From assembly GCA_902776455.1 (NCBI GenBank), contig CACYQI010000040.1, positions 1-50,938 of the forward strand: 50,938 nucleotides of DNA, written 5' to 3'. Origin of the DNA: an uncultured Bacteroidales bacterium (GTDB lineage Bacteria; Bacteroidota; Bacteroidia; Bacteroidales; Bacteroidaceae). A model generated the notes under the pieces. It saw only the letters and a program-made list of their open reading frames with translations. It was not told where the DNA came from and made no database searches. The position numbers and the translations under genes are program-made. Positions 4,552 to 44,869 of the stretch are shown here, piece after piece; the stretch's first letter is position 1, and every line of letters starts with the position of its first letter.

Positions 4552-4642
4552 TATACCCTATATAGACGCAAATGGACGAAATGTCACGCCGGAAGATAAT
4601 AAAAAAGTTGAAAAATTAAAAAGTTGAAAAGGTAAAGCTCTG

Positions 4643-5222: not shown

Positions 5223-5378
5223 AGTGGACTCAATTAATAAATTCAAAATAAAAACCTCTCCATGGAGAGGGGTCAGGGCCGAGGGTCTTTTCATCTTCAA
5301 TCGCGAATTATGAACACTCTTTCGCGCGTTTTTGTCACTTTTATGGTTAAATATGCTCCGTATTCCAAAAATAATTCG

Positions 5379-5386: not shown

Positions 5387-5592
5387 CCTCAACTTCCTTA
5401 AATCTCCATCGGAGGGGAGAGGCTTTATAAAGTTGAAAATGGAAAGTTGAAAGTGTAAAGTTGAAAGTTGAAAGCCCCCCCTCCATCTCCCCCGAGGGGG
5501 TGAGTTTTCGCGGCAGCAAGTCTCCCCTCGGGGAGATTTAGGGGGGTAGAGCTCTTAATCTAACCATAAAAAACAACAAAAAGAACAAGCAA

Positions 5593-11801: not shown

Positions 11802-11833
11802 AATATATAAATATATAATGTATAATGCTTCTG

Positions 11834-11954: not shown

Positions 11955-12042
11955 CAACGTGGAGCATCGGCCGATTCTCCATGGAGAGTAAGCCGATTCT
12001 CCGTGGAGTGTAAGCCAATTCTCCATGGAGTGTAAAACCACC
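11955..12042. repeat. 22-bp palindromic-core array (copy 1), four units
   Basis: Cores start at 11955 (CAACGTGGAG), 11977 (CTCCATGGAG), 11999 (CTCCGTGGAG) and 12021 (CTCCATGGAG), exactly 22 bp apart. The inter-core sequence resembles AGTAAGCCGATT. The array fills much of the 385-bp divergent spacer between the GH66 and PH-domain genes; nothing else but promoters is seen in that spacer. Confidence 0.93.
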
Positions 12043-12186: not shown

Positions 12187-12765
12187 ATGGCGAATTACAT
12201 TAAGCAAAGCCTCGAGGAAGGCGAAACAATCATCTTCAAGGGACGGCTCCACTGGTCGTACATCTTCCGTTACCTCTTCTTCTCCCTGCTGTTTGTGCTG
12301 GGAGGAGCGACTTGCATCTTTCTGGCCTACTACAGGCAACCCGAGAAACAGCAGACGCTCTTCTACGTCGGCATCGCCTTGCTGGTGCTGGCTTTCATCA
12401 TTTGGATAGTGGGCCGCATCGTCAGGACTCGCAGCGAGTTTGCCGTCACCGACACCCGCTTCGTGCAGAAGGACGGCATCTTCAACATCAAGATGACCGA
12501 GATTCCACTGGCTCGCATCGAGACCGTTAACTTCTACCAGTCGCTCTGGCAAAGGATTCTCGGCACCGGATGCGTAGAGATGGTGGGCAGCGGAGGCACG
12601 TCGCATCAGGTGCATTGCATCGAGCAGCCCATGAAAGTGCGCAAGATCATCTGCGCCTCCATCAAGAAGCCCCAGCCTACTAATAGCGCTAGTAACACTA
12701 GTTCTACTAGTTCCACTAGTTCAACTAGCACTCCCAATAATCCTTCTTTGACTGAACAGCCATGA
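12187..12765 (+). CDS. PH domain-containing membrane protein (bPH2/YdbT-like)
   Basis: A 192-residue inner-membrane protein. Two membrane helices (about 26-48 and 55-78) are followed by a bacterial PH-like domain (about 80-160) with the usual SEFAVTDTRFVQKDGIF and ARIETVNFYQSLWQRILGTG blocks. Such proteins are widespread; a precise function is not known. The last about 30 residues are low-complexity Ser/Thr/Asn, encoded by 9-bp ACTAGTTCx repeats (12688-12732) that look like captured repeat DNA. The stop overlaps the ATG of the acyltransferase gene as ATGA, so the two are translationally coupled. The start is fixed by the promoter 21 bases upstream. Confidence 0.85.
   Translation: MANYIKQSLEEGETIIFKGRLHWSYIFRYLFFSLLFVLGGATCIFLAYYRQPEKQQTLFYVGIALLVLAFIIWIVGRIVRTRSEFAVTDTRFVQKDGIFNIKMTEIPLARIETVNFYQSLWQRILGTGCVEMVGSGGTSHQVHCIEQPMKVRKIICASIKKPQPTNSASNTSSTSSTSSTSTPNNPSLTEQP
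12688..12732. repeat. 9-bp repeats with ACTAGT core inside a coding region
   Basis: Five 9-bp units (starts 12688, 12697, 12706, 12715, 12724), mostly ACTAGTTCx, encode the Ser/Thr tail of the PH-domain protein. The period and the palindromic hexamer recall the CTATAG array at 9133-9195. Confidence 0.85.
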
Positions 12766-13921: not shown

Positions 13922-16480
13922 ATGGATAAGAAACTTCTCCTTGACCGCTCAGGTGAATTGCCTGCTTGGTCGATTGCCGATGTTGTGAGCCGGACGCTTC
14001 GAGAGCAGCAGGCTGTGGTCATTACAGCACCTCCGGGTGCCGGCAAATCGACCTTGCTTCCGCTCACCCTCATGCTTGATGCACCCGTGGAGGGTAAGAT
14101 TCTGATGCTCGAACCGCGCCGACTGGCCGCCCGACAAATTGCGGAGCGCATGGCGGAACTGCTCGGCGAACCTGTCGGAAAGACGATCGGCTACCGCATC
14201 CGCTTTGACACGTGCGTCAGCAAGGACACTAAGATTGAGGTCCTCACCGAAGGCATCCTGACGCGCATGCTGGAGAACGACCCGACGCTCGATGGCATCG
14301 GCATCGTCATCTTCGACGAGTTCCACGAGCGCAGCCTGCACTCCGACCTCGCTCTCGCACTCTCCCGACGCGCTCAGCAACTCCTTCGCCCCGACCTTCG
14401 CCTTCTCATCATGTCCGCCACCATCGACGCTTCGGCCATCTGTCAGGCGTTGCAGGCTCCGCTCATCGAGAGCCAAGGACGGATGTTTCCCGTCGAGGTT
14501 CGTTATGCAAAGGAGGATTCCGACCCTCGCGACATGCCGCAAGTGGCGGCACATGCCGTCCGTCAAGCCTTGAAGGAACAGGAAGGTGACATCCTCGTCT
14601 TCCTGCCCGGACAGGCAGACATCGTGAAGTGCGCCGAGTTGCTGCAAGGGAGTGCGGCCACCATCATGCCCCTCTACGGCAACCTCTTGCCCGCGGAACA
14701 GCGAAGAGCCATCTTGCCTTCGAGAAACGGCGAACGGAAAGTCGTGATTGCCACGCCTATTGCCGAGACTTCGCTGACCATCGAGGGCGTCCGCACCGTC
14801 ATCGACAGCGGACTATGCCGTATGCTCGTTTTCGACGGACGCAGCGGTTTGAGCCATCTCGAAACGGTGACAATCAGCATGGACATGGCGAAACAGCGCA
14901 TGGGCCGTGCAGGTCGTCTGGCACCCGGCACTTGCTATCGTCTGTGGACGAAGGCTGCGGAGCATCGCATGGCAGACGGACGTAAGCCGGAAATCGAGTA
15001 TGCCGACTTGGCGCCGCTGCTGCTCGACGTCGCTGCCTTTGGCGAAGCGGATGCTGCAGCCTTGCCTTGGCTCACGAAGCCGCCCGTAAAGAGTCTTGTC
15101 GAAGCACGTCATCTCCTTCTCTCCCTCGGGGCAATCGACGAGAAAGGCATCACGCCGCTCGGCAAAAGAATGGCTGCCTTGCCGTGCCATCCCCGCATCT
15201 CCCGAATGATACTCCGTGCCGCATCTCTTGGCACGACAAGTCTTGCCTGCGACATCGCCGCTTTGCTCGAAGAGAAAGACCCGCTTGCGCAGAACGAAAA
15301 CGAAGCAGACATCGGCTTGCGTATCAGTCAGTTGCAGCGTGCCAGACAGTACAAAAGCCTTGGCCCATGGCAGCGTATCGCCCAGGTTGCCGAAGCTTAT
15401 AGAAAGATGATGAAGGTTTCATCGTCCACCCCTCCCTTGCATACATCCAAGGCTGAGGAGCCGTTCCCCCCTCCTTTGGAGAGGACGGGGGAGGCCGGCC
15501 CTTTGCTTGCCTACGCCTACCCCGAGCGTATTGCGATGCAAATGGACAAGGCTGGACGCTATCGGCTTGCCAGTGGCGACGAGGTACGCCTCGACCGCAG
15601 CGACCCGCTGTCGTCTTATCCCTGGCTTGTCTTTGCGAAAACCCAGTCTATTGGCGTTGCAAGCAAAGAAGCCTCCCTTTTAAGGGGAGGTTTGGTGGGG
15701 TCTCCTGTCGAGCAGTCGGACATTGAGGAACTGGCTTCGCAACGCGACCTTGTAGCTTGGGACAGCAACAGAGAAGGACTTGTCATGCAGCACGAATGGC
15801 GCATCGGACGCCTGTTGCTACGTTCCAAACCCATCCACGATGCACCGCGCGACATGCTGGAACAGGTGCTTTTCGATGCCGTGAAGAAGGAAGGACTCAG
15901 CATGTTGTCGTGGAGCGACGAAGTCGGTGCCTTGCAGCGACGCGTGGCGCAAGTGGCCGCATGGCATCCCGAACTGAACATCCCCGACCTCTCTACCAAG
16001 CATCTCCTTGCTACGGCTCACGAATGGCTACCTTATTATATGTATGAAGCCGACGGTCGCTTGCGCTCCACTGGTGCGTCACTCCGCAAAATCGACTTGT
16101 GCGAAGTGCTGTGGGCACTCGTTCCTTTCGAACTTCAGCAGCAGATAGACCGCCTTGCACCTTCGCATATACAGGTTCCTACGGGCAGTCGCATCCGTGT
16201 GGACTACCGTGCTGGTGCCGCGGCCCCCATATTGAGTGTGCGCCTTCAGGAGTGCTTCGGCATGAAGGAGACACCGTGTGTGAACGATGGGAAGGTGCCT
16301 GTGCTTATGGAACTGCTCTCGCCGGGCTACAAACCTGTGCAGCTCACGAGCAACCTGAAAAGCTTCTGGCAGAACGTTTACTTCGAAGTGCGAGGCGAAT
16401 TGCGCCGTCGCTATCCTAAGCACTATTGGCCTGACAACCCCTTGGAGGCAGAAGCTGTCAGAGGAACGAAGAAAAGGTGA
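13922..16480 (+). CDS. hrpB: ATP-dependent helicase HrpB
   Basis: An 852-residue DExH-box helicase of the HrpB family; its cellular role is poorly defined. Walker A is PPGAGKST (about 37-44), the DEFH box is at about 132-135 and SAT at about 165-167. The helicase C-terminal domain has QRMGRAGRLAPGTCYRLW (about 323-340), and the HA2 and HrpB C-terminal regions follow. Two in-frame insertions look foreign: about residues 500-522 (SSSTPPLHTSKAEEPFPPPL and on) and about 581-592 (KEASLLRGGLVG). Both are encoded by CTCC..GGAG palindromic DNA like that in intergenic regions. It lies 44 bases after the acyltransferase gene and is probably the last gene of that operon. Confidence 0.9.
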   Translation: MDKKLLLDRSGELPAWSIADVVSRTLREQQAVVITAPPGAGKSTLLPLTLMLDAPVEGKILMLEPRRLAARQIAERMAELLGEPVGKTIGYRIRFDTCVSKDTKIEVLTEGILTRMLENDPTLDGIGIVIFDEFHERSLHSDLALALSRRAQQLLRPDLRLLIMSATIDASAICQALQAPLIESQGRMFPVEVRYAKEDSDPRDMPQVAAHAVRQALKEQEGDILVFLPGQADIVKCAELLQGSAATIMPLYGNLLPAEQRRAILPSRNGERKVVIATPIAETSLTIEGVRTVIDSGLCRMLVFDGRSGLSHLETVTISMDMAKQRMGRAGRLAPGTCYRLWTKAAEHRMADGRKPEIEYADLAPLLLDVAAFGEADAAALPWLTKPPVKSLVEARHLLLSLGAIDEKGITPLGKRMAALPCHPRISRMILRAASLGTTSLACDIAALLEEKDPLAQNENEADIGLRISQLQRARQYKSLGPWQRIAQVAEAYRKMMKVSSSTPPLHTSKAEEPFPPPLERTGEAGPLLAYAYPERIAMQMDKAGRYRLASGDEVRLDRSDPLSSYPWLVFAKTQSIGVASKEASLLRGGLVGSPVEQSDIEELASQRDLVAWDSNREGLVMQHEWRIGRLLLRSKPIHDAPRDMLEQVLFDAVKKEGLSMLSWSDEVGALQRRVAQVAAWHPELNIPDLSTKHLLATAHEWLPYYMYEADGRLRSTGASLRKIDLCEVLWALVPFELQQQIDRLAPSHIQVPTGSRIRVDYRAGAAAPILSVRLQECFGMKETPCVNDGKVPVLMELLSPGYKPVQLTSNLKSFWQNVYFEVRGELRRRYPKHYWPDNPLEAEAVRGTKKR

Positions 16481-16510
16481 AAAGTTGAAAGAGTAAATAG
16501 ATGAAAAAGA

Positions 16511-16571
16511 GAAAAGGTGAAAGAGTGAAGCCCTTGATTATGATTTGTCACTCTTTCACCTTTTCACTTTT
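16511..16571. terminator. Bidirectional terminator between hrpB and the fasciclin gene
   Basis: A perfect 18-bp inverted repeat (arms 16511-16528 and 16548-16565, GAAAAGGTGAAAGAGTGA and its complement) with a 19-nt loop. A run of T follows on the plus strand, and A-rich sequence precedes it for the minus strand. It lies between two convergent genes. Confidence 0.75.
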
Positions 16572-16583
16572 TTCAGCTTTCCT

Positions 16584-20512: not shown

Positions 20513-20660
20513 CGACAAAAAAGTGAAAAGTGAAAAGTGAAAGGTGAAAAATTATTTCCCAATGCCTGCATTTTAACATTTCTTTACAGAGAGAAGGCTC
20601 TTGCCATCCCTTTTATTCTTTCGCCTTTCCCCTTTTTTGACTTTTTACTTTTTCACCTTT

Positions 20661-22184
20661 TTACTTTTTCACCTTTTTATATTGTATTACGCGCCATGCT
20701 TTGATGTTGGCGTCTTCGCGTGGGTTGAGCAGGCGGAACTCGATGCGATGGGGGCCGTCCTTGAGGTCGTAGTGCCAATAGAGGCAGTCGGCGGTGCGAC
20801 GCAGGAAGTCGGAGGTGAAGGTCATCACGCGGTCTGTCTTGCCGTCGATGCTGACCTCGAGCTGTGCCTCGTAGGTCTTGTCGGGGCAGTCGATGTTGCC
20901 ATAGAGGGTGATGCCTGTGCCATCGAACTCGATGACGTTCTGCTTGTTACCGGTGTCGCCGAGGTGTTCGATGCCTTCTGCCAGCAGCATAGGCGTCATG
21001 CCTGCGAAGCCTTGTTCCAGGCGGACGGCCTTTGGCTGCTGCACCTTGATGATGACTTTGTCGTCGAGGACCTTGCCGCCGTTCCTTTCGATGTTCTTCA
21101 GGGCGAGGTTGAGGCTTTGCTCATAGACGTCGAGGAGCGACATGGTGGTGTAGGAGAACTTGCGGTCCTCCACTTCGCGAAGGTTGGGCATCCACTTCTC
21201 GGGAATGCCGGAGTAGCCCAGCATGGTGGCGAGGATGCCTGCTGCCGTGGAGGGGTTGCAGTCGGAGTCTTGTCCGCAACGGGTTGCTATCTCCATTGTC
21301 CTGCCGAAGTCGCCGCCGCCGAAGAGGAGTCCCATCGCTACGTAGGCCGAGTTCATGGTGGCGTCGATGTTGCCGGGAGCGAGGATGAGTTCGGGGCAGC
21401 CAACGTCTTCGCCGTACTTCTCGTTGTAGAGCGTCCACGCCCGATGCCAGTCCGTCGGGTCTTCGCCATACCATTTCAGCACGTCGGCGAGGCAACGGTG
21501 GAATTTGCTCTTTCGGGGTATCGTCTGTAAGGCTTTGCTGACGATAGTTGGGATGTCGCTTTCGACGAAAGCCAGCGTGTACATGGCGCCGACGAAGACG
21601 CCGCCGTACCAGCCGTCGCCGTAGTTCATGAGGTGTCCCACCTTGTCGGAGATGCGCGATGCCGTATTGGGCATTCCGGGCGACATGAGGCCGGCGAAGT
21701 CGCTCTCTATCTGATAGTCGATGCAGTCGGCATGGGGGTTGTTCTTCCAGAAGCCAGACTTTGGGGGCATGATGCCGCGGAGGATGTTGTAGCGCGCCTG
21801 TTGGTTGGCATGCCAGAGCGGGTAGGGGGCGTAGGCAAAGGCTTTTGCCATCGACGAAGCAGGAGCGTCGAGACCTTCCTCAGAGAACACTTTGACGAAG
21901 GTCAGATCCATATAAACGTCGTCGAAGAGGCCGGGGGAGTGGTCGTAGAACCACTGGAGGTGATGTTCGGGGTACTTTATCTCGACGTCATCGGGAATGG
22001 TGACGCCCCGGTAGCAGAACTCTGTAGGGCCGCCATAGGCACAGCCAATGGTCTGCCCTGCCCAGCCGCCTTTGATCTTGTCGAGCAGCAGGGCGCGGCT
22101 CATCGTCAGCTGTTGGCGTGCAGCGAGTTGCAGGGGCTGGGCTGACAGGATGGCAGAGAGGAGCAGGAGTGTAAGTCTTTTCAT
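20661..22184 (-). CDS. Secreted ADP-ribosylglycohydrolase family protein
   Basis: About 507 residues from the chosen ATG at 22184, which gives a clean signal peptide (MKRLTLLLLSAILSAQPLQL). Starting further upstream would translate a terminator hairpin. The body is an ADP-ribosylglycohydrolase (DraG/ARH) fold, with KIKGGWAGQTIGCAYGGPTE near the N-terminus, the metal-site acidic cluster in LFDDVYMDLTFV, and the late CGQDSDCNPSTAAGI motif that holds the second Asp pair. The last about 100 residues form a beta-rich domain. Family members remove ADP-ribose from proteins, but many secreted Bacteroidetes members have no known substrate. The stop lies in AT-rich repeat DNA. Confidence 0.85.
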   Translation of the reverse strand: MKRLTLLLLSAILSAQPLQLAARQQLTMSRALLLDKIKGGWAGQTIGCAYGGPTEFCYRGVTIPDDVEIKYPEHHLQWFYDHSPGLFDDVYMDLTFVKVFSEEGLDAPASSMAKAFAYAPYPLWHANQQARYNILRGIMPPKSGFWKNNPHADCIDYQIESDFAGLMSPGMPNTASRISDKVGHLMNYGDGWYGGVFVGAMYTLAFVESDIPTIVSKALQTIPRKSKFHRCLADVLKWYGEDPTDWHRAWTLYNEKYGEDVGCPELILAPGNIDATMNSAYVAMGLLFGGGDFGRTMEIATRCGQDSDCNPSTAAGILATMLGYSGIPEKWMPNLREVEDRKFSYTTMSLLDVYEQSLNLALKNIERNGGKVLDDKVIIKVQQPKAVRLEQGFAGMTPMLLAEGIEHLGDTGNKQNVIEFDGTGITLYGNIDCPDKTYEAQLEVSIDGKTDRVMTFTSDFLRRTADCLYWHYDLKDGPHRIEFRLLNPREDANIKAWRVIQYKKVKK

Positions 22185-22496: not shown

Positions 22497-22634
22497 GAGT
22501 TAAAGGAGTTAAGGGAGTTGCCGCTCGCTGTGCTCGCTGGGAAGTTAAAGACGTTTGCAATGGATGCAGCTATTGTCTTTAACTCCTTTAACTCCTTTAA
22601 CTTCCTTAACTCCTTTGATTCCTTTAACTTCTGT
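22497..22634. repeat. Opposed arrays of 9-bp repeats (GAGTTAAAG / AACTCCTTT)
   Basis: GAGTTAAAG-type units at 22497-22521 face five to six AACTCCTTT-type units with exact 9-bp spacing (starts 22581, 22590, 22599, 22608, 22617, 22626). The two arrays are complementary and could form a stem in the 164-bp gap after nagB. Confidence 0.85.
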
Positions 22635-23532: not shown

Positions 23533-24076
23533 TTTATGACATAAAAAGTGCCGTTAAAGTGGCATTTTGTTCCTTCCGAGGCCCTTTTTGTGCCCTAAAC
23601 CCATGTTGACAAAATGTAAGCAAGATGGCGTTTTTGCTGACACACCCCTTTCGGGGAAACCCTCCAGAATCGCTTCAAATCCTCTTTGTGGCACTTTTGA
23701 ACCCTTGAGCCAAGAAAAGGGCTTAAATCGAAAGCAATTCCGCAACCCGTTGAGGCTCAGTATGTAAATTCTGCCGCCTCACTTTCTTTGTTCAATAGCA
23801 GAATGACACTTTGTAAACTCCGCTTAGCAAAAAGGGCCGTTTTTGCCTGTTTTTGCACACTTTTTTCCGAAGAGAAACTCCGAAAACTCCGTGGAGGAAA
23901 ATCCGATGCTCCGTGGAGAGTAAGCCGACAAAGCACGCTCTTTCGGCCGAAGCCCCGTGGAGCATCAGCAAAAAGAGCGTGTTTTGCGCTTCTGCGAGCC
24001 ATTATTTGCAGTGTGCAATTTCTGACAGAATGCAATCATTCCCCCTTAGATAGCTTGCAAAATGGCAGGCTGAACC
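23533..24076. other. Intergenic region without a credible gene
   Basis: Upstream of the nagB promoter there is no supported gene. Open frames here consist of repeat DNA. The only clear structure is the 22-bp palindromic-core array at 23887-23974. Confidence 0.7.
23887..23974. repeat. 22-bp palindromic-core array (copy 2)
   Basis: Cores start at 23887 (CTCCGTGGAG), 23909 (CTCCGTGGAG) and 23953 (CCCCGTGGAG). The last is 44 bp from the second, so the 22-bp phase is kept although the intermediate unit has diverged. Confidence 0.85.
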
Positions 24077-24253: not shown

Positions 24254-24351
24254 AATTTGAAATTTAGATATTAAGAGAATTAGAAAATAAGAAAAGGATG
24301 CTCACAAGCTGCATACGCAGCCCTTTCTTATTATCTTATTTTCTACATTTC

Positions 24352-27300
24352 TTATTTTACCATTATCTTCTTTCCGTTCACAATGTTGATGCCCTTCTGC
24401 ATCTTGCCCAAGCGTTGGCCGGCAACATTGTAAATGACCTCTGAAGATTCTTCATTCTTCATTCTTAATTCTTCATTTATTCCAGTTGCATCGTCGAAGA
24501 CGAAGGTCAGGAACTCTTTGACAGCGGTGTCGGTCAAATCGAGATAGGCCTTGCCTGCGGGAATGTTGACGCCGCCAACTACGGGGTAGAAGCCCACGAC
24601 GTTGTTGGCAATACCCAGAGCAAAGATGTCTCTGTCAGCGGGAACCGTGTAGCCGGTAGAGCCGATGAGGATGTTGCCGGTTGCGTCGGCAGTTGCCGTA
24701 GTGCTTACCTTATTATAATATGTACCACAGATTACGACAGCTGTCTTGGCAGGAATGTCGCCGATTTCCTCGAGATGCAGGGCGCCTCCGCTGGGCGTAA
24801 GCGTCCCGATGAATGCCTTCGCATCGCCGTTGTACGAGCTAAGTGCCCAGTCTTTGTCAGCATCGTAGAAAGTAGAGTACCCAGCCGCCCCGACATAGAG
24901 CACCTTCTCCCTGCTGCTGTCGAGGACAGGGTTAGCATCCGTTCCGATAGTCTGGTACCAAGCAGAGCCAAGCTTGTAGGCAACCTCGCCGCTGGCAAGC
25001 TCCTCTGCGGATTTTTCTGTTGTGCTGACCATTGTTGAGTTTTTTCCTGCACCAGCAATAGAGCCACTCAAGTAGTAATTGTTCTTGACACAATCTGTTT
25101 TGTCTGTTGTGCTATTATAGATTCCAATGATTGTACCATAGACGCCACCTGTTCCTGAGATATCGCCAACACTTAGGCAGTTCTGTATGCCTTCTATATA
25201 TTGCCTTGTATAACCGACGATGCCACCAAAGCCCTTTCCGGAAGCGTTGCCTGATACGGTGCCGCAGAAGAGGCAATTCGTTATGGTTGCAGAGGCAGTA
25301 TAGCCTACGATGCCGCCAAACTGATCGGCAGTCACTCCGTTGTCAATGTTCAGCTTTCCACTGAATGAACAACAATCGATGAACAACTTATCACTTGTAG
25401 AGTCACTGCCACCACTTCCCAAAACGCCACCGGCATCACTGTCGCAGTGTACTGTAATGTTCAGGGAACTGAGAATGCCGCTAATATGAGAAATGTTCTC
25501 AGAAAATCCTATAACACCTATGTAGTTCCTCGTACCCGAGGTTAAGGTTTCTATGTCACCGTTAATATTGAAGTCCTTAACCGTTGCTCCGTTGATGTAA
25601 CCAAACAAACCATTGTACACACATGGTTCTGTTGTGAGGTTAGAAATAGTATATCCACATCCGTCGAAGGTGCCTGTGTACTTGTTGCTGGCATTGCCGA
25701 TAGGTGTCCATGTGACATTATTTAGGTTAATGTTGGCGGTAAGCTTGGCATTGACGTTGGGATTAATACAATTAACATAAGCAGCAAACCACTTGAATTG
25801 AGTTGGAGTGGCAATCTCATAGTAACCTTCGTTAACTGAGATGTAGTCCTCTTTGGGGTATCCACAATAGGAGCATATTCCTTCATACCAGTCGTGATCG
25901 CCCGTGACTACCTCGTCTGCGTTGCCATAAGAGTAAACGCCTTGGGGAAAGTTAGTGTCGCGGCAGAATGTGCCATTCTTATAAACCTGTCCATGACCGC
26001 TGCTGTAAGGATAGGGATTATTGTCCGTTCCGATAGTTTGATACCAGTCTGTACCTCCGTTTGTGTTTCCATTCAGCATATAGCAGAGTTCGCCGCTGGT
26101 GAGTTGCTCATTTGAAATAGTGTTGGAGAATGTAGGTTGAGTACCCTTCTTGCTGTAGCAGTTGGTAAAAGTGGAAGCAGAAGTATTGGTAGCACCATTA
26201 TCGTAAACATATTTGGCATCGCTTGTTGCGCCTGACACTTCTGCTATGGTCCAACAGTTTTCCATAACCATTGTGGCACTGTTAAACCAGGCAATGATGG
26301 CTGCGGCACCACCTGCGTTTACCGCTCCACCTGTGATAGTACCGGTAGTCCAGCAGTTCTTGATGGTAATGGTTTGGTCTCCTCCCCATGCTGCACCAAT
26401 TATTCCGCCGTCGCGCCGCTTGGAACCTGTCACGTTGCCACAGTTCCCTAGGCCCTCAAAGCTGCCACCACCGCCGGAATGCCGGCCTACGAGACCTACC
26501 TCTTCAGTTCCCTGAATGGCACAACTGCTATCGAGCCAGAAATTCTTGAGCGTCACGTTGGCACCTGTGTTGAACATGCCGTAAGATGTCGGAGCCGAGA
26601 CGTTAATCAGCTGTAGGTTACTGATTTTGTGTCCTTGCCCGTCGAAAGTGCCTATGTATGGATTTGCCTGTGTTCCGATGGGAAAGTGGCTGAGGTCTGC
26701 GCCGTCCATATCAATGTCATCTGTTAGTTCTGCGTTTAGGTCAACGCCGCCAGCATTGACTATGGTTGCGAATGTCACCATGTCGTTCTTATCGTCTATT
26801 GACATTTTATTGTCGGCAAAGTTACGATAATTAGAGGTGTCGTAATAGACTTCTTGGCTTGTAGAAGAAGGTAAGAGGAAATGGACGGGGGTGTCGTCTG
26901 TCTCTATTGTTTGACGGAAACTGCCATTACTTTTACCTCCATTTAGAATGTTATAGCATATTTCGCCGCTGGCCAACTGTTCTTCTGTCGCTGCATAAGG
27001 GGCTTCGCAGTTTGACGTGTTACCGCCAATAGCGCGAGTGATATTAGAACCCTCTTTAAGGCGGTAGTAATTGTTCTTTACGTTTGATGTCGTGCCGCCG
27101 TTCCATGTTCCGATGATGGCACCTTTGTTATTGCTGTCAGAAGAGACGGTAATCTTTCCGATGGACAGGCAGTTCTGCACACCGCCAAAACTGGGTTGCT
27201 TGCAATAGCCTAAGATGCCTCCGTATCTGGAGGTCTCACCGTTGATCGTTCCGCTGAAAATACAGTTGAGGACGGAGCCGTAGCCAGTATAACCCAAAAT

Positions 27301-27919: not shown

Positions 27920-28474
27920 CACTTTTTTACTGAAACGCCATAGAAACGGCACAAAAAAATGCAGGAAATGCTGCATTATGTCATTTCAGGCCTTGTGTTG
28001 GCCTTCAAAACAGTCCCTCCACTCCTTTTTAGAAGGTGTTTATGGGGGAGAGGAGCGATGAGCAAGGAGGATTGCCGAGTTTGAGGTGAATATAAAACAG
28101 CTTCCCTGAAGAGAAGGACTTCTCCCTCTCCAAGTAGAGGCTTTTCTGTGGTTTGACCTTTCCCTGTGGGCTGTCGTTCTCAGTTCTTTGGCTGTTGCCT
28201 CAGAAGCAGGCGGAACTGTGCTTGTCGTGTGAAATAACATTGGTTTTGTCAAAAGTTTTCGCAATGAGGCGCGTTCTGGCGGCGTTTTTTAGCTTCTGTG
28301 GCACTTTGGGTCGGAAAGAGCAGGAAATGGGCTTATTTTGAATCGCTGCTGATAACCAATGGGTTGCAAAGGAGGGTTTTATGGAGGCGGGTTAAGAAAG
28401 TGTTAGGACGGCATGGCATTCCGTCATACAGAACAAAGAATGAGGGGGAAAATTGAAAGTGGAAAGGGGAAATT

Positions 28475-28540
28475 CTACATGGAGGAAAAAGCGATGCAAC
28501 GTGGAGTATCGGTCGTTGCAACATGGAGCGTCGGAAAGGA
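28475..28540. repeat. 22-bp array (copy 3), diverged cores
   Basis: Cores start at 28475 (CTACATGGAG), 28497 (CAACGTGGAG) and 28519 (CAACATGGAG), exactly 22 bp apart, with TATCGG or GTCGG after the core as in the large array at 33476. The left half of the palindrome has changed from CTCC to CAAC. Confidence 0.8.
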
Positions 28541-28655
28541 TGGCGAGCGGGGGAGGGGTTTGCCCTATGGAGAGGAAGGGAATCATGTCAAGGATTTTCG
28601 GACGCTCGGCCTTTTGTTCTCGGGGGAGGCCTACGCCGAGCCGCCAGATTAGGCC

Positions 28656-28818
28656 TTAGGCGGCGAAGCTGGAGGGCGGGAGCTTGGTAATGTTGCGTTG
28701 GCAACGCAACATACGGGACGGCGGGAGAAGGTAATTTTGCTTTGGCAACGCAACATACGAGACAGCGGGAGAAGGTAATTTTGCTTTGGCAACGCAACAT
28801 ACGGGACGGCGGGAGAGA
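28656..28818. repeat. 44-bp tandem repeat, three copies
   Basis: The segment starting GGCAACGCAACATACG recurs at 28700, 28744 and 28788, exactly 44 bp apart. It contains GGCGGGAGAAGGTAATTTTG. In the first copy the junction reads TGTTGCGTT-GGC-AACGCAACA, a perfect palindrome, which is degenerate in the next two. Confidence 0.95.
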
Positions 28819-30286: not shown

Positions 30287-33200
30287 ATGAAGCAACAGAC
30301 ATTACTTCTTGTGTTTGCCCTGGCTTTGTCGCTGCACGTCTCAGCACAAAAGGTTATCTTTCCGCAGGAGCAGCAGGCTGGCACAGCAACCTCGGCGGTT
30401 GTGGGCGATACTTACACGCTGAGCAACGACTTGCTTTCGGCTTCGTTTGTGTTGAACGATGGCAAGCTCACCTTCGGCGGCTGCGAGGCGATGGGCTTGA
30501 AGCCAAGCGACGACCTCTTCAGCATCCGCCTTGGGAGCGGCACAGAAGTGGCATCGTCGGCAATGACGCTGGAAGGCGTTGAGGCAGAAGAACTTTCAGC
30601 CGATGCCTCCGCCGCGAAGGGGGCGCTGAAGCTCCCCGGTAAGAGCATCAAGGCAACCTACACCTATGGCGACCTCTCGCTGACGTGGCGGGCCGTGCTG
30701 CGCGACGGTTCCCATTATCTGCGCACCGAGCTGGAGCTGACAGCCGTGAGGGATGTGGCCATGAATGCCGTCATCCCCATGCACTACACCGTCGATAACA
30801 GCAGCAGCGAGCAGGCTCCTGCCGTCGTCGGCAACACGCGGGGAGCCGTCATAGCCAGCAACAAGATCTTCGCTGGCCTTGAGACTCCGATGGGCAAGAA
30901 CAGCATCGTGGGAGCCATGAATGCAGCTCCTTTTGTCTATGACCGATGGTCCGGCACGACCTTCAGCTGGCTGCCCGGCTCAGAGACGCCGCAGGGCATC
31001 CTCAGTCTTGGCTTGGCTGCAAGCGCCGTCTGCGGCACGCAGGGCTATCTCGGCCTCTTGGAGAGCGGCAGGCAGACCGTCACCTTCCAGTACACCAGCG
31101 GCAGCCATCGCCTCGACATCGCTGGCGTTGACATCATCGACCTCGATGGGAACGTCGTGGCTCACGACTATCATAAAGGCTATACGGGAGGGGCGAAGTC
31201 GAGAAACGTCTATACACTCAACATCCCTGCCGCAGGCTACTACCTCGTCCGCTACTTCCGCGACACGCAGACAGACGCCATCAGCAGCACGTGGAACAGC
31301 AATGGCAGCATCACGTGGAGTTGCGAAGTCATCGCTCCGGAACTGGTCTTCGACGGCAACACCGAAGCCAACGTCCTGCCAGAGAGCAGCGGCTCGGCCT
31401 CGTCCCTGCCCTCGCTGCTTGCCGTTGGCGGCACGCGTACCGACTCGTGGAACACCGCTTCGTGGAGTGCTCCATCCCTTGTTCCTGCCCGCATCAGCGA
31501 GCTTGGCTACACGTCCGACAGGATAAAGATGATGTCGAAGCCCGTCAGCTTTGCCCGAAGCGGCGGCCTCTTTTCCGCGCAGTTCATGTATGCTTCCGGC
31601 TATCACGGCCTTACCATCGCCGGCGTAGAGTTGGCTGATGCCGATGGCAACGTGGCGGCTTCCGACTACCACAAGGGCTTCTCCGGCTCGGCCAAGACGG
31701 ACAACGTCTATAGCTTCACCGTTCCGGCAGCAGGCTCCTACGACCTTCGCTATTATGTCGTGCTCAATCCCGACGGCAGCGACAACACTTCCTCCGGCAA
31801 CATCAACCTCAACTACGTCAAGAACGAGTACCTGCACCTCGCCGCGCCTACAGAGACGGAAATCCTGGGCGAATGGAGCAGGCAAACCATGCTGGCAAAA
31901 GGCAAGACATGGAAGGTGGGCGCCGTGGTCGGCCTCATTGCTCCCGGTCAGGCACGCCGTTCCTTCCTCTGCTACAGCGAGCGCGAAAGGGCCGTGCCTT
32001 GGCGTCCTTTCCCTATGTACAACTCATGGTTCGAGCTGAACATCGACCGCAACAACGACCCGAACTACACCACGAACTTCAACGAAGCACAGTGCCTTGA
32101 AGTCCTCGAGCAATGGAAGCTGCACCTCTTCGACAAGTATGGCGTAGGCATCAGCACCTTCATGTGGGACGACGGCTGGGACGAGTATGGAACTTGGCAG
32201 TTCAACCCGAACTTCCCCGATGGCTTCCAGAAACTCAGCGACAAGGCATGGAGCATGGACTCACAGATTGGTGCATGGCTCGGCCCGGTGGGCGGCTACG
32301 GACAGAGCGGCAACTACCGTCGCAACTACTGGAGCGGCAAGGGCGGTATGCAGCTCTCCAATCCGGCCTACTACAACGTCTTCCTCGACCGCACGAGCTT
32401 CATGCTCAACAACTACCACTTCAATTACTTCAAGTTCGACGGCATCAGCGGCCAGTTCAGCGCAGTCGGGCCGGATGCCGGCGCGACGGGCGAAGAGAAT
32501 GCCGAGGGCATCATCGACATCGAACTGAAGCTGCGCGAAGTGAAGCCCGACGTGTTCTTCAACACGAGCGTCGGCACGTGGGCGTCGCCCTTCTGGTTCC
32601 AAGTGACCGATGCCGTCTGGCGGCAGGAGAACGACTGGGGCACAGTGGGCAACCAGGGCAACAGCCGCGAACAATGGATTACCTACCGCGACCGCCTCGT
32701 CTATCAGAACTTCGTGCAGAACTCGCCTCTCTGTCCCATCAACACCCTGATGACGCACGGCTTTATGCTCTCGAAGTACGGCGGTGGCGTGGCCAACATG
32801 AGCCGCAACTACGCCGACATCGTGCGCGAGCTGCGTTGTGCCTTTGCCTGTGGCAGCGGCATGGTGGAGGTCTATGCCGACTTCTCGCTGATGAACAGCA
32901 TCAATGCCGGCAAGCTCTGGGGCGACCTCGCCGAGTGCATCCGCTGGCAGAAGGCGCAGGAGGACGTTCTGCCCGACGTGCATTGGGTGGGCGGCAATCC
33001 GTGGGACGGCAGCAAGGCTAACGTCTATGGCTGGGCAGCCTGGAACGGCGAACGCGCAACCCTCGCCCTCCGCAACCCCTCGGCTTCGGCACAGACCTTC
33101 ACGACAACCCTCCGCGAGGCACTCGACATTCCTGCTTACATCCACACAAGCATTACCCTAAGCGATGCCTTCAGTCAAAGCCCTCTCAGCGGACTTGCCA

Positions 33201-33445
33201 CGGACACGCCCCTCGACATCGACACGCCCTTGACGCTCCGCCTCGCCGCCTCGTCCGTATATATATATAATGGTATAGACGATAATGCCACCGGCATCGG
33301 CACCGTCCATCCCGCTTCCGACGAAGAAGTGGTAAATGGTACAAGGCTAAATGGTGAATGCTACGACCTCTCCGGCCGCAAGGTGTACAAACCGCTGAGA
33401 AACAGCGTCAACATCGTTGAAGGGAAGAAGATATTGAAGCAATAA
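30287..33445 (+). CDS. Secreted clan GH-D-like glycosidase (alpha-galactosidase-like)
   Basis: A 1052-residue secreted protein with a signal peptide (about 1-21, ending VSAQ). The catalytic barrel (about residues 560-950) shows WDDGWDEYG (about 627), a YFKFDGISG strand with the likely nucleophile Asp at about 718, and GTWASPFWFQVTDAVWRQEN further on, as in melibiase-like clan GH-D enzymes. Two related modules of about 80-90 residues (about 265-350 and 440-525) share LxIAGVxxxDxDGNVxAxDY then HKG, suggesting an internal duplication of a carbohydrate-binding-like domain. The C-terminus has the tail YDLSGRKVYKPLRNSVNIVE then GKKILKQ. Alpha-galactosidase activity is a guess at family level; other glycan substrates are possible. 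Confidence 0.75.
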   Translation: MKQQTLLLVFALALSLHVSAQKVIFPQEQQAGTATSAVVGDTYTLSNDLLSASFVLNDGKLTFGGCEAMGLKPSDDLFSIRLGSGTEVASSAMTLEGVEAEELSADASAAKGALKLPGKSIKATYTYGDLSLTWRAVLRDGSHYLRTELELTAVRDVAMNAVIPMHYTVDNSSSEQAPAVVGNTRGAVIASNKIFAGLETPMGKNSIVGAMNAAPFVYDRWSGTTFSWLPGSETPQGILSLGLAASAVCGTQGYLGLLESGRQTVTFQYTSGSHRLDIAGVDIIDLDGNVVAHDYHKGYTGGAKSRNVYTLNIPAAGYYLVRYFRDTQTDAISSTWNSNGSITWSCEVIAPELVFDGNTEANVLPESSGSASSLPSLLAVGGTRTDSWNTASWSAPSLVPARISELGYTSDRIKMMSKPVSFARSGGLFSAQFMYASGYHGLTIAGVELADADGNVAASDYHKGFSGSAKTDNVYSFTVPAAGSYDLRYYVVLNPDGSDNTSSGNINLNYVKNEYLHLAAPTETEILGEWSRQTMLAKGKTWKVGAVVGLIAPGQARRSFLCYSERERAVPWRPFPMYNSWFELNIDRNNDPNYTTNFNEAQCLEVLEQWKLHLFDKYGVGISTFMWDDGWDEYGTWQFNPNFPDGFQKLSDKAWSMDSQIGAWLGPVGGYGQSGNYRRNYWSGKGGMQLSNPAYYNVFLDRTSFMLNNYHFNYFKFDGISGQFSAVGPDAGATGEENAEGIIDIELKLREVKPDVFFNTSVGTWASPFWFQVTDAVWRQENDWGTVGNQGNSREQWITYRDRLVYQNFVQNSPLCPINTLMTHGFMLSKYGGGVANMSRNYADIVRELRCAFACGSGMVEVYADFSLMNSINAGKLWGDLAECIRWQKAQEDVLPDVHWVGGNPWDGSKANVYGWAAWNGERATLALRNPSASAQTFTTTLREALDIPAYIHTSITLSDAFSQSPLSGLATDTPLDIDTPLTLRLAASSVYIYNGIDDNATGIGTVHPASDEEVVNGTRLNGECYDLSGRKVYKPLRNSVNIVEGKKILKQ

Positions 33446-33475: not shown

Positions 33476-33651
33476 CTCCACGGAGTATCGGCCTACACTC
33501 CACGGAGCATCGGCTCACGCTCCACGGAGTATCGGCCTACACTCCACGGAGCATCGGCTCACGCTCCACGGAGCATCGGCCTACACTCCACGGAGCATCG
33601 GCTTACGCTCCACGGAGCATCGGCTCACACTCCACGGAGTGTTGACTTATA
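33476..33651. repeat. 22-bp palindromic-core array (copy 4), eight units
   Basis: Eight cores CTCCACGGAG start at 33476, 33498, 33520, 33542, 33564, 33586, 33608 and 33630. Units read core plus y-r-TCGGC-yy-ACr and show only a few transitions between copies. There are no variable spacers. Confidence 0.97.
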
Positions 33652-40355: not shown

Positions 40356-40730
40356 ATGGCTGATATAAAGGCTCTTGCTGCTGAGCTCGTAGCGCTCACA
40401 GTACAGGAAGTAATTGATCTTAAGAACGAACTTAAGGAAACTTATGGCATCGAGCCCGCTGCTGCTGCTGTCGTAGTTGCTGCCGGTGGTGAAGGTGCAG
40501 GCGCTGCTGCCGAGGAAAAGACCGACTTCGATGTTGTCCTCAAGAGTGCAGGTGCTGCCAAGCTGCAGGTTGTTAAGGCTGTCAAGGAAGCTTGCGGTCT
40601 TGGCCTGAAGGAAGCAAAGGAAATGGTTGACGGCGCTCCCAGCGTGCTGAAGGAAGGCATGCCTAAGGCTGACGCAGAGGCTCTGAAGAAGACTCTCGAG
40701 GAAGCTGGCGCTGAGGTTGAACTCAAGTAA
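40356..40730 (+). CDS. rplL: 50S ribosomal protein L7/L12
   Basis: A 124-residue acidic stalk protein. The N-terminal dimerisation domain (about 1-35) and an Ala/Gly hinge (about 36-52) precede the C-terminal domain with [20 protein letters not shown] and [15 protein letters not shown]. Length is normal. Confidence 0.97.
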
Positions 40731-40760
40731 TACTTCCCTTCCCCAAAAGGGACTAACGGT

Positions 40761-40795
40761 AAAGGATCCTCTGGTAGAGGGTTCTTTGCCTTTTT
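40761..40795 (+). terminator. Terminator or attenuator between rplL and rpoB
   Basis: A 12-bp stem (AAAGGATCCTCT at 40761-40772 with AGAGGGTTCTTT at 40776-40787, two wobble pairs) with a GGT loop, followed by GCC and a run of five T. Partial termination here would lower rpoBC relative to the ribosomal protein genes, as known in other bacteria. Confidence 0.7.
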
Positions 40796-40860
40796 GTGTC
40801 TATAAACTTTATAACCATTTGCAGCCTTCTGAAGCTGCCCGAAGGGGGGGGCGATTTACG

Positions 40861-40948
40861 CTCCGTGCTGTGTAGGCCGATGCTCCGTGGAGCGTAAGCC
40901 GATGCTCCGTGCTGTGTAAGCCGATGCTCCGTGGAGCGTGTATCGAAT
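40861..40948. repeat. 22-bp palindromic-core array (copy 5) in the rplL-rpoB spacer
   Basis: Cores start at 40861 (CTCCGTGCTG), 40883 (CTCCGTGGAG), 40905 (CTCCGTGCTG) and 40927 (CTCCGTGGAG), exactly 22 bp apart. Two cores have lost the right half of the palindrome. The 329-bp spacer holds only this array and the terminator. Confidence 0.93.
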
Positions 40949-41059
40949 CCCTTAGGGTTTGTCTGCGAGAATGCTGTGTTTCGGACCGCGATGCGGGGGC
41001 AAACGAATGGTTGAGAGACGTTTATAAATAATTTCACGAGAAAGCAATATCAAGTTTAG

Positions 41060-44000
41060 ATGGCTAAGAAAAAAATTCAGAGAGTAAATTTCGCTTCCGT
41101 TAAAAGTCCGTTGGCATACCCCGACTTTCTGGAAGTGCAGCTGAAGTCGTTCAAGGACTTCCTCCAACTGGATACTCCTCCTGAGCTGAGGAAGTATGAC
41201 GGTTTGTACAAGGTCTTCTCTGAGAATTTCCCGATTAACGACACGCGCAACAACTTTAATCTGGAGTTTCTCGACTACTTTATTGACCCTCCGCGCTACT
41301 CCATCGAGGAGTGCTTGGAGCGCGACCTCACCTATAGCGTGCCCTTGAAGGCAAAGCTGAAGCTGAGCTGCGACGACCCCGACCATGAGGATTTCGACAC
41401 GGTGGTTCAGGATGTGTTCCTGGGCTTCATCCCCTACATGACGGACAATGGCACGTTCATCATCAACGGTGCCGAGCGCGTTGTCGTTTCGCAGTTGCAC
41501 CGCTCTCCCGGTGTCTTCTTCGGCAGCAGTGTACATGCTAATGGCTCGTTGCTCTACTCTGCCCGCATCATTCCCTTCAAGGGTAGCTGGATAGAGTTCG
41601 CTACGGACATAAATAATGTAATGTACGCGTACATCGACCGTAAGAAGAAGTTACCTGTCACGACTCTGCTCCGTGCCATCGGATTTGAGAACGACAAGGA
41701 CATCCTGCAGATTTTCGACTTGGCAGAGGAAGTCAAGGCTACGCGCGAGAACTTGAAGGCTCACCTTGGCCAGAAGCTTGCAGCACGTGTGCTTAACAGC
41801 TGGATTGAGGACTTTGTCGATGAGGACACGGGCGAGGTTGTATCCATCGAGCGTAACAAGATTATTCTGGAGCGCGAGAGCGTGCTCGACGATGATGCCA
41901 TCGAACAGATTCTCTCCAGCAATGTTCCTTCTGTTCTTGTTCACAAGGATGATGCCCAGTCCTCTGACTACAGCATCATCTTCAACACCTTCCAGAAGGA
42001 TGCCACCAACAGCGAAAAAGAAGCCATCAGCTATATCTATAAGCAGTTGCGCAATGCCGACCCTGTGGACGACGCCAGTGCCAAGGAAGTCATCCTCAAC
42101 CTCTTCTTCAGCGAGAAGCGCTATGACTTGGGAGAGGTGGGCCGCTATCGTATCAACCACAAGCTTGGCCTGGACACCGACCCAAGTGTGCGTGTGCTGA
42201 CCAAGGAAGACATCATCGAGATTATCAAGTATCTGATTGAGCTTGTCAACTCTAAGGCACAGGTCGATGATATCGACCACCTGAGCAACCGCCGCGTCCG
42301 CACCGTCGGCGAGCAGTTGGCCAATCAGTTCGCCATTGGCTTGGCCCGCATGATTCGCACCATTCGCGAGCGTATGAATGTCCGCGACAACGAGGTGTTC
42401 ACGCCTACCGACCTGCTGACCAGCAAGAGCCTGGGCGGTGTCATCAACAGCTTCTTCGGCACCAACGCCCTGAGCCAGTTCATGGACCAGACCAACCCCT
42501 TGGCAGAGGTGACGCACAAGCGCCGTCTGTCAGCCCTCGGCCCCGGCGGCCTTTCTCGTGAGCGTGCCGGCTTCGAGGTGCGCGACGTACACTATACCCA
42601 CTACGGCCGTCTTTGTCCCATCGAGTCGCCCGAAGGTCCCAACATCGGTCTGATTTCCTCACTTTGCGTCTATGCCAAGATTAACGACCTCGGTTTCATC
42701 GAGACACCTTACCGCAAGGTGGAGAACGCCAAGGTTGACCTCACTCCCAGTGGCGTCCGCTATATGACGGCGGAGGAGGAGAAGGGCCTCATCATCGGTC
42801 AGGGTAATGCGCCGCTCAACGACGACGGAACCTTCATCCGCACAAAGGTGAAGTGCCGTCAGGACGACGACTATCCCGTTGTTCCTCCCTCGGAGGTCAA
42901 CCTTATGGACGTAGCTCCTCAGCAGATTGCGTCTATCGCTGCTGCCCTGATACCCTTCCTGGAGCACGACGATGCCCACCGTGCACTGATGGGATCGAAC
43001 ATGATGCGCCAGGCAGTGCCCTTGATGCGCACCGAAGCACCTATCGTCGGCACAGGCATCGAGCGTCAGGTCTGCGAAGACTCCCGCACGATGATTACCG
43101 CCGAGGGCGATGGCGTTGTCGAATATGTTGACGCCACCACCATCCGCATCCTCTACGACCGTACAGAGGAAGAGGAGTTCGTCAGCTTCGAGCCTGCTCT
43201 GAAGGAGTACCGCATACCTAAGTTCCGCCGCACCAACCAGAACATGACCATCGACCTTCGTCCCATCTGCGATAAGGGCGACCGTGTAGTCAAGGGCCAG
43301 ATACTGACCGAAGGCTATTCCACAGAGGACGGCGAACTGGCACTCGGCAAGAACCTTCTGGTGGCTTACATGCCTTGGAAGGGTTACAACTACGAGGATG
43401 CCATCGTGCTCAACGAGCGTGTTGTCCGCGAAGATATCCTCACGAGCGTCCACGTCGAAGAGTTCTCTCTCGAAGTGCGCGAGACAAAGCGCGGCATGGA
43501 GGAACTTACGGCCGACATCCCCAACGTCAGCGAGGAAGCAACAAAGGATCTCGACGAGAACGGTATCATCCGTATCGGTGCCCGTGTAGCTCCCGGCGAC
43601 ATCATGATAGGTAAGATTACGCCCAAGGGCGAGAGCGACCCCAGCCCCGAAGAGAAACTGCTTCGTGCCATCTTCGGTGACAAGGCAGGCGACGTGAAGG
43701 ACGCTTCGCTCAAGGCAAGCCCGTCGCTCAACGGCGTTGTCATCGACAAGAAGCTCTTCACCAAAGCCTCCAAGACAGGCAAGGTGAAACTGCAGGACAA
43801 GCCCCGCCTGGCTGCTATCGACGAAGAGTTCAACAGCAAGGCTGACGACCTCAAGGCTATCCTTGTCGATAAGCTCCTGGAGCTTACGAAGAACAAGAAG
43901 AGCCAGGGCATCGTGGACAACGTCGGCGTAGAGCTTGTTCCAAAGAACAGCACCATTACTGCCAACCTGCTTAACACAATCGATTTCACTACTGTGCAGC

Positions 44001-44869
44001 TCATTGGCTGGACAAACGATGCCCACATCAACGAACTCATTGGCAAGCTCATCATCAATTACCTCAAGAAGTTCAAACTGCTTGAGACTGAGATGAAGCG
44101 TAAGAAGTTTGCCATCAGCCTTGGCGACGAGCTGCCCAACGGCATCATCCAGCTGGCAAAGGTCTATATAGCCAAGAAGCGTAAGATTGGTGTCGGCGAC
44201 AAGATGGCAGGCCGTCATGGCAACAAGGGCATTGTCAGCAAGGTCGTTCGCCAGGAGGATATGCCTTTCCTGGCCGACGGCACACCCGTCGACATCGTGC
44301 TCAACCCGCTGGGTGTGCCTTCGCGTATGAACATCGGACAGATATTCGAGACCGTGCTCGGCGCTGCCGGACAGAAGCTTGGAGTGAAGTTTGCAACGCC
44401 CATCTTCGACGGTGCTTCGCTCGACGACCTCTGCGAATGGACAGACAAGGCAGGCTTGCCACGCTACTGCTCTACACAGCTCTACGACGGAGCTACTGGC
44501 GAACCCTTCGACCAGCTTGCAACAGTCGGTGTGGCCTATATGCTCAAGCTCGGCCACATGGTCGAGGACAAGATGCACGCCCGCAGCATCGGTCCGTACT
44601 CCCTCATCACCCAGCAGCCTCTCGGCGGTAAGGCACAGTTCGGCGGCCAGCGTTTCGGTGAGATGGAAGTCTGGGCTATCGAGGCCTTCGGTGCTTCGCA
44701 TGTGCTGCAAGAGATACTTACCATCAAGAGTGACGATGTAGTGGGTCGCAGCAAGGCCTACGAAGCTATCGTCAAGGGTGAACACATGCCCACGCCGGGC
44801 ATCCCAGAGTCTCTCAACGTGCTCCTCCACGAGTTGCGCGGATTGGGATTGCGTGTAAGTTTGGAATAA
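41060..44869 (+). CDS. rpoB: DNA-directed RNA polymerase subunit beta
   Basis: A 1269-residue beta subunit, normal for Bacteroidetes. Recognisable regions include the N-terminal protrusion ([20 protein letters not shown]), the rifampicin-binding cluster ([20 protein letters not shown] near 470-490, then [19 protein letters not shown]), the active-site [19 protein letters not shown] and the C-terminal [19 protein letters not shown]. In the rifampicin region the usual sensitive-type residues Q, D, H, R and S are present. It lies 31 bases before rpoC. Confidence 0.98.

Follow-up and report, generated by a model that had tools for sequence, protein, structure and literature searches.

The BOX element of Streptococcus pneumoniae is an intergenic repeat of modular make-up, with modules at its ends and, between them, middle modules of about 45 bp whose number varies; to our knowledge, the middle module is one sequence family, and we know of no phased palindromes of changing sequence in it. 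The ERIC/IRU and REP/BIME repeats of enterobacteria are intergenic, palindromic and present in many copies, with REP accompanying genes of the REP-associated tyrosine transposases (RAYT), and we know of neither a fixed 22-bp lattice nor a change of core at a fixed period in them. The DNA uptake sequence dialects of the Neisseriaceae are short genome-wide motifs with species-specific versions, which change along with a known reader protein. The nearest described element found here is the BrickBuilt MITE of Porphyromonas gingivalis, for which the parts of the report that we draw on give a 23-nt tandem unit at 19 loci and a leader and tail with 12-nt ends like those of IS5-family elements (PMC4596501); P. 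gingivalis repeats are also treated in PMC5771137.

The arrays presented below matched no catalogued family, in line with an earlier note on this DNA, which knew of no named element that fits. Rfam returned only tRNAs in the window at the gathering score, and nothing up to E 1 at 40700-41100, which sets aside a catalogued RNA. The exact tandem unit had no match in GTDB 220 species (records very near the window's genome possibly being left out), and the exact tandem pattern had none among viral contigs, the ground on which a viral origin was rejected. A literature search, with preprints outside its scope and few subscription papers within it, turned up no account of 22-bp arrays whose sequence changes.

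The arrays of the window and its genome

The window is the whole stretch of 50,938 bp that was analyzed, in which the earlier note had reported five arrays of one 22-bp unit. All five were found again at the same places, and all are intergenic (5/5, by a simple gene caller). The features are as follows:

11955..12042, - strand: array of four core slots, between two + strand genes (11283-11810 and 12187-12765)
23887..23974, - strand: array with intact cores at 23887 and 23909, one slot lost and one CCCCGTGGAG, between two - strand genes
28240..28605, + strand: part of a dispersed repeat of about 350 bp (class B), containing the array at 28475..28540
28475..28540, + strand: array inside the class B repeat, with CTACATGGAG, CAACGTGGAG and CAACATGGAG over 28475-28528
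33476..33651, + strand: largest array in the window, with eight perfect CTCCACGGAG cores over 33476-33639, 22 bp apart
40356..40730, + strand: rplL, ribosomal protein L7/L12, upstream of the array at 40861..40948 (NCBIfam TIGR00855, 117.9 bits, cut-off 84.4)
40861..40948, - strand: array in the rplL-rpoB intergenic gap, four slots, with CTCCGTGCTG and CTCCGTGGAG alternating over 40861-40936
41060..44869, + strand: rpoB, RNA polymerase subunit beta, downstream of that array (NCBIfam TIGR02013, 1822 bits, cut-off 801)

Each array consists of 10-bp cores, mostly CTCCRYGGAG, and 12-bp spacers related to CATCGGCCTACA, with a period of exactly 22 bp. Some core slots are altered on one half (e.g., CAACGTGGAG and CTCCGTGCTG) and some are lost, and these slots are still in phase, as the earlier note had claimed for decayed cores. 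The largest array starts 30 bp past the stop of a 1052-aa gene (30287-33445), and its spacer reaching 33651 is degenerate. The array at 11955..12042 has outer arms (GGTGGTTTTACA and TGTAGAACCACC) and end cores (CTCTGCGAGG and CCTCTCAAGG) in phase with the rest. CTCCnnGGAG also occurs at 5258 and 45386, solitary in both cases.

Other repeats of the window include a separate 44-bp tandem repeat at 28671-28816 (3.3 copies, 90% matches; 44 being 2 × 22) and 7-9-bp tandem tracts of the types AAAGTTG, CTTTAACTC and TTTTTCAAC (4598-4636, 5429-5474, 16471-16580, 20519-20679, 22577-22631 and 24324-24373), with runs of AAAGTTG found within class B repeats too. By a fragment of rpoB, the nearest named records, 95% identical, are the metagenome assemblies RUI392 and RGIG9745 (Bacteroidaceae) and the assembly RUG11599 (Bacteroidales); going by sequence, the window's host is not plainly a Prevotella.

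The arrays exceed chance expectation in the window's genome (G000; 3.39 Mb, 94 contigs, 87% complete). A relaxed unit with up to three mismatches gave 738 and 720 matches on the two strands of the whole genome, where the reversed control gave 30 and 58, and exact pairs of cores 22 bp apart number 353 per strand with none in the control. Our sample of this genome comprises 496,938 bp in 24 stretches, namely the window, 20 stretches each 20 kb long, and three that were picked for Y1_Tnp matches. A first weight-matrix listing gave 57 clusters over 450,938 bp, of which 12 were single matches; with an array defined by at least two in-phase cores, these reduce to 41 arrays in the same DNA, and 44 with stretch L061, from which about 300 are extrapolated for the whole genome. 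All 44 lie in gene-free DNA (simple gene caller), and every pair of cores up to 200 bp apart is spaced by a multiple of 22 (256/256, with 0/256 off phase). Four core slots are commonest (19/44), followed by two (14/44) and five (7/44), and most two-core arrays reside in class B repeats. The samples cover 15-20% of the two best studied genomes, which are incomplete. The earlier observation is confirmed in its period and its intergenic placement, and its extent is larger than first stated.

Unit change at a constant period

We used a sequence-free lag test that counts 40-bp segments matching themselves at a given lag, with short-period DNA masked. For G000 (490,938 bp), the cluster counts are 53 at lag 22, 47 at lag 44 and 26 at lag 66, with 9 at lag 18, 8 at lag 21 and 1 at lag 23. 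Across 681,400 bp from 20 further genomes of the genus, there are 44 clusters at lag 22, 25 at lag 44 and 8 at lag 66, the next being lag 24 (6 clusters), lags 21, 48 and 54 (4 each) and lag 23 (3). At least one lag-22 cluster is found in 12/20 of these genomes, the eight without one being sampled by 20 kb each, and the 10 genomes sampled from other families (378,477 bp in all, just 1,258 bp for one of them) yield none. The 22-bp units differ among genomes, and often inside one genome too. Of the proposal in the earlier note that related genomes be searched for the unit, the period held in other species of the genus and the unit itself did not, as these mostly have other units.

The second well-sampled case, G050 (536,922 bp), carries 28 arrays of three or more cores of the form G[GC]TTAA[GC]C, among which 16 have four slots, and the core distances in this family up to 150 bp are all multiples of 22 (139/139). 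Exact 22-bp pairs were counted for four tested cores in 139 genomes. CTCCRYGGAG has 353 pairs in G000 and at most 2 in any other genome; GSTTAASC has 278 in G050, 256 in G024, 32 in G124, 17 in G034, 8 in G047 and at most 2 elsewhere; CGCRYGCG has 367 in G091, 342 in G016, 233 in G128 and at most 6 elsewhere; and CCCTATAG, on the forward strand, has 137 in G085, 23 in G088, 15 in G027, 7 in G112 and at most 4 elsewhere. The seven genomes with more than 130 pairs of one core (rich-core level 137-367) show no more than 2 pairs for any other tested core. Reversed controls were mostly 0, with a maximum of 8 (G031), and 102/139 genomes are without any of the four tested cores (union of the four lists), the presence of further cores having been checked solely in the lag-test genomes. 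G128 also holds one window-like array of CAACGTGGAG units (L128:9132). The spacing thus persists while the core changes between species, a pattern that suggests reading of the spacing itself and not of any single sequence.

The gap between rplL and rpoB, selected because the window has an array there, displays the same behavior at one place. The rpoB search gave no match in 5/24 genomes, and 2/19 matches (G136 and G081) were excluded for a missing gene start; the comparison has 23 rows, 18 of which form a clade (support 99/100) of 16 distinct species, two rows being duplicates. A 22-bp array occupies the gap in 14 of the 16 species (the window's and 13 others), with a lag-22 match of 25-36 of 36 and at most 19 at other lags from 18 to 26; the array of G128 is just at the threshold (25 of 36). 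It is absent in G037 and G076 (gap 106-107 bp) and in the five rows outside the clade, and of 79 named records that carry both genes, only RUG11599 and RGIG9745, both of this clade, show lag 22. At least six clearly different units occur there among the related species, which include:

Window's genome: its own unit, CTCCGTGCTG / CTCCGTGGAG
G091: CCGCGTGCGG with GGCGTTTGACATTT
G085: CCCCTAGCAAGCGTTGACAATT
G031, with G007 alike: GGCTCTTCGGAAATAAGCGTTA
G087: CGTGAGTCG unit
G088, G050, G024, G027, G112 and RGIG9745: ACGTG...TTGGCAAAC group

The species with different units in this gap at the same 22-bp spacing have rpoB fragments 93-97% identical to the window's, and such a swap is what would be expected if a reader measures spacing and shifts its specificity. 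In G000 and G091, the unit in the gap is the core in which the respective genome is rich, and in G085 it is a relative of that core; it differs from the rich core in G050, G024, G088, G027 and G112, which speaks against one reader per genome. Directly after rplL, a hairpin with a T-tract (GGTAAAGGATCCTCTGGTAGAGGGTTCTTTGCCTTTTT and near variants) is found at about 40750-40800 of the window and in L077-L090 (rows of the genus that were read), and is perhaps a terminator or attenuator before rpoB.

A second shared place is offered by the class B repeat, which has at least four further copies in G000 at 81-83% identity, among the best five places per genome (C2:210008, C2:155090, C34:12916 and C30:32057), and partial homologues in a further 15 genomes of the genus, the alignments listed being 70-84% identical. 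Class B homologues from 11 other species were collected through the conserved parts. Where the array should lie, lag 22 ranks first among lags 15-30 in 10/11, of which G124, G091 and G037 reach just 19-20 of 36; G088 fails (18 vs. 19). Other units stand at that place, except in G076, which has a window-type unit. In 28 pairs from eight copies, the arrays have 287 substitutions and 1 gap and the remainder 1683 and 58, counts that come from non-independent pairs under BLAST gap costs, with few gaps across class B as a whole too. Near either end, class B copies carry similar GAAAA..TTGACA stretches, which are directly oriented.

The lattice extends to the symmetry of the arrays. The palindrome profile of G000 peaks at the core and, more weakly, at +11 (2.51 of 5 pairs), and in the GSTTAASC family of G050, a second dyad likewise lies at +11 (2.45). 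The G000 flanks have a further peak 22 bp outside the end cores (1.91 vs. base 1.13), a degenerate dyad one slot out; in the G050 flanks, offset 22 ranks second (1.84, base 1.15) behind offset 5 (2.05). Taken per array on the raw consensus, the palindrome test is weak (shuffle p ≤ 0.05 in 6/53 arrays of G000 and 8/44 of other species), and a full 5-of-5 dyad is found in 7/53 and 10/44, respectively, vs. 2.3% of random 22-mers. Arrays of at least four cores in G000 often have outer arms (GGNGGTTTTACR ... YGTAAAACCNCC) and are often flanked, in the same phase, by end cores like CCYCTNNGRGG; the outer arms are inverted in many of them.

Copying, placement and folding

The 118 spacers between core slots in G000 (59 distinct, 293 departures from consensus) are mostly variants of one consensus and not unrelated unique sequences, for which reason a CRISPR array was rejected; the spacer chains were built in phase, so length change is judged by the off-phase count given above. 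The order CATCGGCTTACR / GAAAGGCTCACR / CATCGGGCTACR is common to L036:15244 and L037:1449 and recurs, with changes, at L044:6104, L036:11666 and L037:965. That arrays at separate loci share one succession of three unlike spacers shows that copying between loci has involved whole arrays, and for the same reason, slippage alone, as in a simple minisatellite, is a poor account. The spacer motif TGGCAA, found in 31/107 distinct arrays and 9/12 other species, hints at a common ancestor of the units, with the halfway dyad perhaps the better conserved half. As a separate case, a long 22-bp array of G102 (L143:4120-4324) combines the CTCCACGGAG core with a spacer, ACAACTCTCCCT, unlike the window's, so one core can stand with a different spacer.

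These data bear on the main alternative to a protein reader, namely a selfish or neutral, non-autonomous element like BrickBuilt, in which a 22-bp minisatellite, ancestral and contained in a small mobile repeat, would have spread into intergenic DNA and been homogenized within species by copying, its period being inherited and held by the amplification mechanism. We consider it a serious possibility, if on balance a doubtful one. The recurring spacer order, the near-identical flanks of about 25-35 bp on each side of the neighboring elements L037:965 and L037:1449, the multi-copy class B repeat, the several unit kinds per genome and the TGGCAA motif all fit it. It is less at ease with a period that survives when the entire unit is replaced (lags 22, 21 and 23 giving 44, 4 and 3 clusters in the 20 other genomes, and 53, 8 and 1 in G000), with different units in the same place within homologous surroundings (rplL-rpoB and class B) and with pair counts that are alike for unrelated cores in six genomes (353, 278, 256, 367, 342 and 233), yet only 137 in G085. 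A reader-free copied repeat explains most of the facts and must add a reason why other periods are so rare.

Position is a further point in its favor. We compared orthologous flanks of 18 array-bearing and 18 control genes of G000 in G050, G085, G087 and G128, the control gaps being hand-picked from 37, with usable matches for 18/18 array genes and 16/18 control genes; matches below 58% identity were excluded, 3 of the 107 best matches were dropped for flanks under 500 bp, and part of the orthologous places was fetched. Arrays are present at 19/54 flanks of array genes and 12/50 of control genes (Fisher p 0.28), counts in which one G128 array serves two array genes and one G087 array serves an array gene and a control gene. 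G128 alone differs (10/16 vs. 2/12, p 0.02, with its one array double-counted), and G050, G085 and G087 together do not (9/38 vs. 10/38); the other lags from 18 to 26 total 3 for array genes and 0 for control genes. Conservation of the sites in position, which the earlier note had proposed to check, is accordingly unsupported overall, and it was set aside as a proof of function: arrays are common, and their places turn over except at some loci. Between tandem genes, the array lies closer to the upstream stop in 52/75 cases (p 0.001), and divergent gaps hold 14/114 arrays vs. 21-23% expected by space (p 0.01 vs. 22%), both of which also suit the mobile element.

The 3′-side placement is equally a point for structure in RNA or single-stranded DNA, with 3′-end hairpins that would stabilize or end transcripts, as in ERIC or REP-type repeats, which we deem improbable. 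In its support, the mean folding z-scores of arrays (-4.08 for G000, n = 53; -3.08 for other species, n = 72) are lower than those of array-free gaps (-1.35, n = 58; -1.22, n = 93), though inverted repeats must fold so, and elements of G050 are often A-rich at the left end and T-rich at the right. The segment 11930-12060 (131 bases), around the first array of the window, is predicted to fold into a single long hairpin (-78.6 kcal/mol). On the given strand, however, 12/53 and 26/72 arrays fall short of z -2, and hairpins do not require exact spacing. One half of a core is often changed in G000 and G050, both halves almost never (0 AA/AA of 162 in G000; 1 C/C at ±3 of 147 in G050), and symmetric core positions match less than expected (45/147 vs. 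58.8 at ±5 in G050; 8/162 vs. 53.9 at ±1 in G000), although both patterns may only reflect an asymmetric unit present in two orientations. One-half changes without covariation argue for sites in DNA rather than core hairpins, which were rejected as the selected feature; we take the constrained property to be the fixed spacing, not pairing. The array of five identical asymmetric cores (CTCCACGTTG) at L040:15954 also tells against structure as the function, as does an array between rplL and rpoB, which usually share one operon.

Mobilization of REP elements by a RAYT is a very remote prospect. A 179-aa frame like a Y1 transposase (RAYT-like; L061:9594-10133) has an array 290 bp downstream, a juxtaposition seen in one case only, and no Y1_Tnp match at E 0.001 is found in G050 and G085 (both incomplete) despite their 278 and 137 exact pairs, on which ground REP/BIME with RAYT was rejected. 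Further frames resembling Y1, but more weakly (448 and 339 aa), are found in L062 and L063.

A candidate reader of the lattice and the nearest known systems

The reading that we favor, while holding it at slightly less than an even chance, is that the arrays are dyads in DNA read at two-turn spacing by a co-changing dimeric protein, itself hypothetical. Such readers would best account, taken together, for the two-turn spacing, the 11-bp lattice of dyads, the free core, the one rich core in each of seven genomes and the swaps of unit within one gap or repeat. The arrays themselves form a class, at genus level, of intergenic DNA elements on an 11/22-bp lattice, often with about four quasi-palindromic cores two helical turns apart, a weaker halfway dyad and degenerate in-phase end cores. 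The protein would read the array in double-stranded form, with its own copies lined up on one helix face and presumably cooperating; its specificity and the sites would change together, the latter through whole-array copying between loci, by gene conversion or transposition.

Several observations weigh against the dimeric reader: the several unit kinds per genome mean that a single co-changing protein leaves some arrays unexplained, GCTTAAGC with both halves changed exists in G024 and G047, the orthologous flanks show no significant excess of arrays, and dispersal with species restriction suits a parasite equally well. The earlier note had offered phased protein binding and a selfish tandem repeat as an open pair. 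The former is raised by the 22-bp phase kept in the G000 sample and in unrelated units elsewhere; the latter stays alive as a mobile repeat, dispersed, species-restricted and mostly unfixed in position, but without its mechanism of slippage alone.

More speculatively, and with doubt prevailing, we propose a "phase code" of hundreds of intergenic sites on a fixed 11/22-bp lattice of dyads, with fast-changing (hypothetical) DNA-binding readers and cores replaced between close species, a turnover that may be likened to those of satellite DNA, recombination-hotspot readers and uptake-sequence dialects. If true, it may organize the chromosome or mark self DNA. Bacterial dispersed repeats are usually defined by sequence, whereas here the sequence is free and the geometry fixed, and the arrays give a direct test of how genome-wide sets of sites get rewritten. 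Should there be no reader, copying would need some mechanism with a 22-bp ruler of its own, and that would be equally new. Searching for repeats by period and not by sequence is applicable to any genome.

Among known systems, BrickBuilt shares with these arrays the order Bacteroidales and a tandem unit of about two turns in a dispersed intergenic element, with imperfect repeats, a variable number of units and restriction to one or two species; it has 23 nt and 19 loci to the 22 nt and about 300 loci here, and a change of unit between species at constant period, as seen here, is not described for it in the parts of the report that we draw on (PMC4596501). Its terminal inverted repeats, GAGACCTTTGCA and GAGACCTTCGCA, occur within 400 bp, at up to one mismatch, of 0/44 and 1/44 arrays, respectively, and its description as always intergenic holds for the 44 arrays of G000, while 4/72 arrays of other species overlap a called gene. 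BOX resembles the arrays in being modular and intergenic with end modules and a variable middle count, but its middle module is about 45 bp and of one family, unlike phased palindromes of changing sequence. The ERIC/IRU and REP/BIME repeats are similarly intergenic, palindromic and multi-copy, with no fixed 22-bp lattice known in them. The closest analogy for species-specific cores is provided by the uptake dialects, which are single motifs with a known reader, whereas the arrays are tandem at 22 bp and their reader is hypothetical.
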